The translations under genes and the position numbers were made by a program. A stretch of DNA of 64,000 bases from Candidatus Eremiobacteraceae bacterium (GTDB lineage Bacteria; Vulcanimicrobiota; Vulcanimicrobiia; Eremiobacterales; Eremiobacteraceae): the NCBI GenBank assembly GCA_035314825.1, contig DATFYX010000001.1:1-64000 (forward strand), read 5' to 3'. How positions within the stretch are numbered: the stretch's first letter is position 1; each line of letters starts with the position of its first letter. The notes beneath the pieces were generated by a model. That model had not been told where the DNA came from and did no database searches. It saw nothing but the letters and a program-made list of their open reading frames with translations. Of this stretch, positions 3,809 to 36,110 are shown piece by piece.

Positions 3809-5059
3809 ATGCGACCTTCGAGGCGCGTCGTCATCACCGGACTCGGTGCGGTCACGCCGCTCGGCCACACGGTTCCTGAGTTCTGGTCCAACGTCGTCGC
3901 CGGCAAGAGCGGAGTCGGCGAGATCACGGCGTTCGACGCCTCGCATCTGCCCACGCGCTTCGCGGCGGAGGTGCGCGGCTTCGACGCGCCGGCCCTGATG
4001 GGCAAAAAAGAGGCGCGCAAGGCCGATCGCTTCGCGCAGTTCGCCATCATCGCCGCCAAAGAGGCGCTGGCCGACTCCGGCCTTGAGATCAACGACGACA
4101 ATCGCGACGACATCGGCGTCGTCATGGGCTCCGGTATCGGCGGCATCATCACGATCGAGAACCAGCACAAGGTCATGCTCGCGCAAGGCGCGGACCGGTT
4201 GTCGCCGTTCTTCATCCCCATGCTCATCTCGAACATCGCGCCCGGCCTCATCTCGATGAACATGGGCGTGCGCGGGCCGACGTTCACGTCGGTCTCGGCG
4301 TGCGCCTCGTCGAACAACGCGATCGGCGAGGCCTACCGCTCGGTCCAATTGGGCGAGGCCGACGCCATGATCTGCGGGGGCTCAGAGGCCCCCATCTCGC
4401 CGCTCGCGGTAGCCGGTTTCTGCGCCATGCGCGCGCTGTCGACGCGCAACGACTCGCCCGCGACCGCCAGCCGGCCGTTCGACAAGGAGCGCGACGGCTT
4501 CGTGATGGCCGAGGGCGGCGGCGCGCTCATGATCGAGGAGCTGGAGCACGCTCGGCGCCGCGACGCGCGCATCTACGCCGAACTCGTCGGCTACGGCACG
4601 TCGTCGGATGCCTACCATATGGTGCAGCCGGATCCGGATGCTCGCGGCGTGACCTTGGCCATGCAGCGCGCGCTGCGCGACGCCGGCATCGAGCCGTCGG
4701 ACGTCGACTACATCAATGCCCACGCGACCTCGACCGATCTCGGCGATATCGCCGAAACCCAGGCGATCCACCGCGTGTTCGGCGAGCGGGCCAAGACGCT
4801 GGCCGTGAGCTCGAACAAGTCGATGTTCGGCCATGCGCTCGGGGCGGCGGGCGCGCTGGAAGGCATCTGCACGGTGCTGACGATCCGCGACGGCATCATC
4901 CCGCCGACCATCAACTACCACCACGTCGATCCGCTGTGCGACCTCGATTGCGTGCCCAACGTCGCGCGCAAGGCCACGGTCGACATCGCGATGTCGAATT
5001 CGTTCGGTTTCGGCGGCCACAACGCGGTCATCGTCTTCCGCCGTTTCGCGGAGAGCTGA
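3809..5059 (+). CDS. fabF: 3-oxoacyl-[acyl-carrier-protein] synthase II
   Basis: 416 aa, the usual length. Condenses malonyl-ACP with acyl-ACP in fatty-acid elongation. The catalytic triad is present: Cys in SVSACASSNNA, His in NAHATSTDLGD and His in KSMFGHALGAAGA; the C-terminal NSFGFGGHNAVIVF loop is typical. The ATG at 3809 gives MRPSRRVVITGLG, the family N-terminus; the frame is open to 3722 but nothing upstream looks conserved. No good Shine-Dalgarno lies before it. First gene of a fabF-rnc-smc-purH run; acpP, often in front, is not here. Confidence 0.95.
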   Translation: MRPSRRVVITGLGAVTPLGHTVPEFWSNVVAGKSGVGEITAFDASHLPTRFAAEVRGFDAPALMGKKEARKADRFAQFAIIAAKEALADSGLEINDDNRDDIGVVMGSGIGGIITIENQHKVMLAQGADRLSPFFIPMLISNIAPGLISMNMGVRGPTFTSVSACASSNNAIGEAYRSVQLGEADAMICGGSEAPISPLAVAGFCAMRALSTRNDSPATASRPFDKERDGFVMAEGGGALMIEELEHARRRDARIYAELVGYGTSSDAYHMVQPDPDARGVTLAMQRALRDAGIEPSDVDYINAHATSTDLGDIAETQAIHRVFGERAKTLAVSSNKSMFGHALGAAGALEGICTVLTIRDGIIPPTINYHHVDPLCDLDCVPNVARKATVDIAMSNSFGFGGHNAVIVFRRFAES

Positions 5060-11263: not shown

Positions 11264-11298
11264 GGGCGTCCTCCAATGACGGACGAGGAAGGAATCGG

Positions 11299-11775
11299 AT
11301 GCTCGAGGTTAACGCGCGCGCGCCGTCAATCCCTGTTCCGGATCAATCGGGACGCCCGCGCAGCATCGATGAGTTCAAAAGCTCGTGGGTCGTCCTGTGG
11401 TTCTATCCCAAAGACCACACCAGCGGTTGAACGAACGAAGCGTCGCAGTTCCGCGATGCCCAACCCGAATTCACGCGCGCCGGCGCCCAGATCGTCGGCG
11501 TCAGCCGCGACTCGGTGCAATCACACGAGTCCTTCGCGCAGGCGCAGGGCTTGCAGTTCCCGCTGCTCGCCGACACCGGCGAGGCGCTGTGCAAAGCGTA
11601 TGGAACGCTTGTCGAACGCGTGGCCGACGACGGCTCGAAGTCGATGGGGCTGCAGCGCTCGACATTTCTCATCGATACGCACGGCGTGATCCGCCACGTC
11701 TGGCCCAAGGTGTCGGTGCCGGGTCACGCGGCCGACGTGCTCGACACGCTGCGGTTGATGACCGCGAAGGGCTAG
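11299..11775 (+). CDS. Bcp/PrxQ-type peroxiredoxin with in-frame UGA (probable selenoprotein)
   Basis: 158 aa if UGA 11428-11430 is read as selenocysteine (residue 44). Before it the frame gives [11 protein letters not shown], after it [10 protein letters not shown]; in Bcp proteins this reads FYPKDxTPGC-T-x-E, so the UGA replaces exactly the peroxidatic Cys. The frame then stays intact through [33 protein letters not shown] to a normal end. Start ATG 11299 has GAGGAAGGAA before it. A stem-loop follows the UGA (11440-11459). The usual nearby resolving Cys is Ser; one Cys remains in ALCKAYG. Needs SelA/SelB/SelC/SelD, not in this window. The alternative is a nonsense mutation or sequence error. 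Confidence 0.8.
11440..11459 (+). promoter_or_regulatory. Candidate bacterial SECIS element
   Basis: GCGTCGC-AGTTCC-GCGATGC: a 7-bp stem (one G-U pair) with a 6-nt apical loop, 9 nt after the UGA. A G lies at the second loop position, and the loop starts 16 nt after the UGA, within the spacing described for bacterial SECIS elements (a G among the first two loop bases, 16-37 nt from UGA). Confidence 0.6.
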
Positions 11776-11782
11776 ATCGAGT

Positions 11783-12193
11783 ATGACATGGTTCGCCGGA
11801 AGCCTCATCATCTGGTCGCGCACCGCGGCGCCGAACGACGACAACCCTGACCCGCCCTGCCACTTCTGGGAACGCGTCATGATGGTCGAGGCCGATGACG
11901 TCGATCGTGCGGTGCAGAAGCTGACCGATTTCGGCAACGCCGACGCGGCGGAGAATTCGACGCAGCCCGACGAAGGCGACGATATCCAGCCCTCTTCGTC
12001 GGAGGCCGGCGCCGAGCAGCTCGTCTTCATGGGAGTCCGCAAGGTCCGCGCGATCGAATCCGTCGGACCGCCCGGCGCGGAGCCGGCGGGCGATCTCGTC
12101 GAGGTGATGTTCTCCGAGATGGAGGCCCGCAACAAGACCGACCTCCTCAAAGTCGCGGCGGGCAAAGATGTCATCGTGAGGTACATCGACTAG
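11783..12193 (+). CDS. DUF4288-like small protein
   Basis: 136 aa. Begins MTWFAGSLIIWSR, then WERVMMVEADDVDRAVQKL, FMGVRKVRAIE and LVEVMFSEMEARN: the order and spacing of the DUF4288 family (W-F/Y-A start, WEE-type strand, VxAExxxEA helix, FxGVxxV strand, a final E-V-x-S). The middle has an acidic, Ser-rich insert (residues ~55-75). Function unknown. It starts 7 nt after the peroxiredoxin stop and is probably co-transcribed; its 3' end overlaps the convergent YcgQ-like gene by 23 nt. Confidence 0.65.
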   Translation: MTWFAGSLIIWSRTAAPNDDNPDPPCHFWERVMMVEADDVDRAVQKLTDFGNADAAENSTQPDEGDDIQPSSSEAGAEQLVFMGVRKVRAIESVGPPGAEPAGDLVEVMFSEMEARNKTDLLKVAAGKDVIVRYID

Positions 12194-35919: not shown

Positions 35920-36110
35920 CGAGATCTCCCTGCGGTGTGCGCCAGTCCGCTTTGTGATTGAGCCAACGCAATCACAACGGGAGCCGATCTCCGGGCCGCT
36001 TTGAGCAAGCCCTCCACGAGAGGGAAGCCTGTGTCCGGCCGGGTGAGCACCCACCTGCGAGAGCAGGTTCAGATCCCTTGCGGGCAACGGCACTTCGGGG
36101 CAGAGCATAG
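35920..36110 (+). ncRNA. ssrS: 6S RNA
   Basis: A 355-nt gap between two minus-strand genes holds a structured plus-strand RNA. The closing stem is formed by TCTCCCTGCGGTG (35925-35937) and CACTTCGGGGCAGA (36092-36105, one bulged C), the counterpart of the conserved 6S ends (CUCCCUGAGGUG and ACGGCACUUCGGGGAG). GCCAGTCC and GAGCC follow the 5' strand, AAGCCTGTGTCCGGCC lies in the right half, and AACGGCACTTCGGGG closes it. About 180 nt between stem ends is the usual 6S length. 6S RNA binds housekeeping RNA polymerase as an open-promoter mimic in stationary phase. It has its own terminator. Confidence 0.75.

Follow-up and report, generated by a model that had tools for sequence, protein, structure and literature searches.

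An in-frame UGA at the peroxidatic position of a PrxQ/Bcp-type peroxiredoxin gene from Eremiobacterota as a probable selenocysteine codon

In a 64,000-nucleotide stretch of Eremiobacterota DNA, referred to here in its full length as the window, a peroxiredoxin (Prx) frame is interrupted by a UGA codon at the place of its catalytic cysteine, which raises the question of whether the codon is read as selenocysteine (Sec) or marks a damaged or misread gene. Sec-containing peroxiredoxins (Sec-Prx) of COG1225 (Bcp) with a TxxU motif are a known family (PMC9312934, PMC1088965), for which the motif PxxxTxxU has been stated (PMC13188914) and 91 genes in 78 organisms have been reported (PMC5029168). From comparative sequence evidence, we consider it almost certain that the gene encodes a Sec-containing PrxQ/Bcp-type peroxiredoxin whose UGA would be decoded by SelB under the guidance of a hairpin.

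The reading frame and its predicted protein

The features of the locus, all on the forward strand of the window, are as follows.

11285..11293, forward: Shine-Dalgarno-like GAGGAAGGA, read off the sequence, 5 nt upstream of the ATG at 11299
11299..11775, forward: gene for a predicted Sec-containing PrxQ/Bcp peroxiredoxin of 158 aa when the UGA is translated as Sec, ending in TAG at 11773-11775, identified by domain and structure matches
11398..11400, forward: codon of Trp34, residue -10 from the Sec, invariant in Sec orthologues and Tyr/Phe in Cys orthologues
11428..11430, forward: UGA codon, predicted Sec44 at the peroxidatic position, in the PxxxTxxU motif P37 KDH T41 SG U44
11440..11459, forward: bacterial SECIS-like hairpin, stem 11440-11446/11453-11459 (7 bp), loop AGUUCC at 11447-11452
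11590..11592, forward: codon of Cys98, the sole other thiol of the protein and candidate resolving residue

The frame and the UGA position were computed directly: the ATG opens a frame that meets TGA at codon 44 and then continues for 114 codons up to the TAG. An earlier sequence-only reading had placed the UGA exactly at the peroxidatic cysteine of such a continuing frame, and the alignment bears this out, as the TGA falls on the peroxidatic Cys of FYPKDxTPGC in solved Bcp/PrxQ structures, which are the nearest solved structures to the 158-aa protein and align with it over residues 2-152. The read-through protein covers the entire Pfam AhpC-TSA domain (E=5e-36) and matches NCBIfam PrxQ-type models at 1e-28 to 3e-35, under their curated equivalog cut-offs. 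It combines the two marks of COG1225/Bcp Sec-Prx, an AhpC-TSA PrxQ-like domain and the PxxxTxxU motif (P37, T41, U44). Standard gene calling would split this gene at the UGA.

With the Sec-Prx family, represented by PrxU of Eubacterium acidaminophilum and the Sargasso Sea Prx, the predicted protein shares the peroxidatic Sec, the PxxxTxxU motif and the AhpC-TSA fold, and its gene shares a SECIS-like hairpin right after the UGA (PMC9312934, PMC13188914, PMC1088965). Unlike PrxU, it comes from an Eremiobacterota lineage, belongs to the PrxQ subfamily and scores 50.7 bits against the PrxU equivalog NF040737, far under its cut-off of 270. Cys-type PrxQ/Bcp proteins (E. coli Bcp, Xanthomonas Bcp 3gkn/5iiz, Burkholderia 5enu) have the same fold and motifs, but in the window protein Sec would replace the peroxidatic Cys. 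The two resolving positions of atypical 2-Cys PrxQ, at +5 and in the alpha-3 helix, hold Ser and Ala instead of Cys, and at one position where the window protein has Ala, one of two aligned Bcp chains has Cys.

Seven bases 3' of the PrxQ gene lies a gene of 136 aa (11783-12193, forward strand) with no Pfam or NCBIfam match, possibly a PrxQ partner within one transcript. Elsewhere in the window, a 6S RNA is found at 35924-36105 on the forward strand (Rfam RF00013, 83.9 bits).

Selenocysteine machinery and the placement of the UGA among relatives

The window belongs to a 2.55-Mb draft genome of 89 contigs that is 97% complete. Direct searches of this genome found each component that defines bacterial selenoprotein synthesis, namely SelA, SelB, SelD and tRNA-Sec(UCA), here listed by contig.

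C66:21956-23287: selA, 522 bits
C66:23305-25167: selB, directly after selA, 305 bits, over the cut-off
C66, 3.6 kb beyond selB: tRNA-Sec, 76 bits, anticodon tca (ARAGORN)
C1:187040-187966: selD, 380 bits

The selA-selB-tRNA-Sec region of C66 (L018 5027-14828) stands behind a gyrA-like gene, and two Cys-type msrA-like genes lie between selB and tRNA-Sec.

The strong evidence for a Sec reading comes from the placement of the UGA across relatives. Among 78 genomes of the class, PrxQ codon 44 is TGA in 35 and TGC or TGT in 43, with no other codon, so that the in-frame UGA occupies one alignment column with a conserved redox Cys. The UGA forms are spread over three families, and the frame downstream of the UGA is conserved. 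The nearest named relative, L021 ('Candidatus Eremiobacterota bacterium'), is 77% identical across the UGA and has TGA at the same codon; TGC or TGT stands there in the other named relatives whose matches reach it (Rhodospirillales, Holophagaceae and others). A DNA pattern for the UGA form of PrxQ matched in 33 of 149 genomes of the phylum, and the reversed control pattern matched in 0.

A selA gene turned up in 99 of the 117 genomes of the class, and a whole class of Eremiobacterota thus appears to use selenocysteine. Sixteen genomes have a PrxQ gene but no selA, and the Cys form occurs in 14 of these (Fisher p=0.004, a value not corrected for phylogeny); the two UGA-form exceptions are drafts. 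In G003 and G085, one of them a draft only 63% complete, a UGA-form PrxQ is present, yet neither selA nor selB was found. The G003 gene (C357:25099-25530, L099) lies in a 96%-complete draft, and its lack of selA and selB likely reflects a binning gap; otherwise it would be a stranded selenoprotein gene.

Several other explanations of the UGA were weighed against these data. A random nonsense mutation at the Cys codon of an ordinary PrxQ would leave a pseudogene, and one base change is enough to turn TGC or TGT, both common in the class, into TGA. An error of sequencing or assembly at 11428-11430 is conceivable in a draft of 89 contigs. Both fail as explanations because the codon is UGA in 35 and TGC/TGT in 43 of the 78 genomes. 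The same TGA is shared by independent assemblies (L021, G001, G006, G008 and others), which makes an error exceedingly improbable. A pseudogene, for its part, would have to have arisen at this very codon in 35 genomes spread over three families, with no loss of the frame beyond it; the changes between the window gene and L021 are biased to third codon positions (39 versus 19 and 11 at the other two), the downstream frame being under purifying selection, and the Sec machinery of the genome is complete. We give this explanation next to no credence.

The UGA might also stand for Trp, Gly or Cys, either by code reassignment or by the action of a suppressor tRNA. Nothing found here speaks for this reading, and we regard it as very unlikely, since the UGAs in the genes examined, three Prx and one FdhA-like protein, all lie at catalytic Cys/Sec positions, four ordinary window genes used for codon counts contain no in-frame TGA, and the genome encodes selA, selB, selD and a tRNA-Sec with a UCA anticodon. 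The Sec reading of the window gene is further accompanied by at least three other UGA-Sec genes in the same genome, all of them followed by a suitable hairpin. Scanning for AhpC-TSA proteins brought up two more with one TGA each, both at the peroxidatic position, and the remaining gene is formate-dehydrogenase-like.

C88:26105-26455 (L144 1606): second predicted Sec Prx-like protein, VLYFFPQAFTEG-U-T (FTEG-UGA-T), UGA at the peroxidatic position
C67:29359-29733 (L145 1624), minus strand: third predicted Sec Prx-like protein, VLIFYVLDHTLG-U-Y (HTLG-UGA-Y), UGA at the peroxidatic position
C1:102937-104412 (L176 1597): formate-dehydrogenase-like molybdopterin oxidoreductase (match at C1:102937-104196), NQARI-UGA-HSSTVPGLGTSFGRGG, UGA at the metal-ligand position

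The motif of the C1 oxidoreductase is one that we take to be the Sec formate dehydrogenase motif, and its hairpin, GGUGCCC-GGUCU-GGGCACC, has the textbook GGUCU loop. In the C88 gene the same frame continues into a second AhpC-TSA domain with a CAPC motif, by which we read the product as a fused Sec-Prx/thioredoxin-like protein. Sister genome G001 (L107) has the C67 protein as well. A search of the window's genome for an Rdx/SelW protein gave no match. A scan of the window for more UGA-interrupted genes gave false candidates only, such as the fabF/rnc junction at 5057, and its sensitivity is low because the known PrxQ-UGA gene went undetected by it; the total of at least four UGA-Sec genes in the genome is a lower bound.

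The sequence-only reading had proposed a selenoprotein in a lineage with a selenocysteine pathway, had named the absence of the sel genes from the genome as a finding that would overturn it, and had suggested aligning homologues at the UGA. With all of these genes present and the codon alternating between Sec and Cys, the proposal stands, and by its sequence relationships the gene is best described as a genuine selenoprotein of the known Sec-Prx kind. A search of the open-access literature, incomplete in coverage, found no paper connecting Eremiobacterota with selenocysteine or selenoproteins, which leaves a first report unproven.

The hairpin downstream of the UGA

The bSECIS model describes a hairpin with a loop of 3-9 nt, a stem of 4-16 bp and G in loop position 1 or 2, placed 16-37 nt from the UGA, with a minimum free energy of at most -7.5 kcal/mol (PMC13188914). 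The window hairpin, GCGUCGC-AGUUCC-GCGAUGC, was likewise computed directly and falls within all of these limits, having a 6-nt loop with G at position 2, followed by U, 7 bp, a loop start 16 nt after the UGA and a folding energy of -10.5 kcal/mol (z=-3.6), in agreement with the earlier description of a loop G at an allowed distance (model from PMC13188914). When synonymous codons were shuffled, however, 14% of the recodings matched this hairpin (P=0.14), and taken alone it is weak evidence for Sec.

The SECIS of E. coli fdhF has a small apical loop, AGGUCU, with G near the loop start, about 16-17 nt after the UGA. The window hairpin resembles it in its small G-bearing apical loop and in its distance from the UGA; the loop sequences differ, AGUUCC in PrxQ against AGGUCU in fdhF and GGUCU in the genome's FdhA-like gene.

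Of the 35 Sec orthologues, 20 have a stem of at least 7 bp, and some others (L085, L088, L121, L122, L125) have short stems only. Part of the window stem's pairs are retained more often among Sec than among Cys forms. Counted from the UGA, the bases at 11 and 28 nt can pair in 16/26 Sec forms versus 7/43 Cys forms, and this is paralleled at residue 54, which is Ala in many Sec forms and Leu in most Cys forms, as if an RNA constraint of the hairpin were shaping the protein there. Nine Sec forms that make up a divergent clade within the window's family have another hairpin, (A)GUCAGC-GGUCU-GCUGAC, located 28 nt after the UGA, in which seven pairs are retained in nearly all nine members and one compensatory A-U/G-C change is seen.

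Residue -10, the resolving residue and the proposed mechanism

At -10 relative to the active site, every one of the 35 Sec forms has Trp, and each of the 43 Cys forms has Tyr (42) or Phe (1). This is the sole column that fully separates the two (0.99 bits; next best, 0.51), and Trp at -10 in all its Sec forms sets the PrxQ of this class apart from PrxU and the Sargasso Sea Prx. On a tree built without the column, the Sec/Cys character must change 7 times (5-8 across the bootstraps), and a single clade of Sec forms is rejected (p-AU 0.019). On the best tree, all independent pairs show Trp together with Sec, but strongly supported branches lie under only one pair, so shared descent of Trp and Sec may still account for the link. 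The rule does not carry over to the Sec Prx-like proteins of C88 and C67, in which the residue is Tyr and Ile. We hold in even balance the proposal that, in the PrxQ lineage of this class, a swap between Sec and Cys brings with it a change at a second site, to Trp for Sec and to Tyr/Phe for Cys, at each of the 5-8 inferred switches. It is plausible that this coupling is functional, and Trp34 may be required for tuning or shielding the selenolate, with a loose parallel in the Trp that belongs to the catalytic tetrad of GPx. If true, the coupling would amount to a rule for turning a Cys peroxidase into a Sec peroxidase. The repeated switches, with a Trp/Tyr site linked to them without exception, form a natural experiment in the requirements of Sec use by a protein.

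How the PrxQ protein works is proposed by analogy with the family, from the insertion of Sec and the peroxidase reaction to the substrate and the reductant. SelB with Sec-tRNA(UCA) would decode the UGA as Sec, guided by the hairpin, and the selenolate would attack H2O2 or organic hydroperoxides and form a selenenic acid, to be reduced by an external thiol, or through Cys98, and thioredoxin. The Ser in place of the resolving Cys had earlier been thought to suit a Sec enzyme. That idea was not upheld: Ser at +5 occurs in 19/35 Sec forms and 22/43 Cys forms and, because it is equally common in both, is a trait of the subfamily with no link to Sec. A 1-Sec mechanism with resolution by an external thiol is likelier than an intramolecular selenosulfide, because the protein has no Cys at +5 and a second Cys is entirely absent in 11 of the 35 Sec orthologues.
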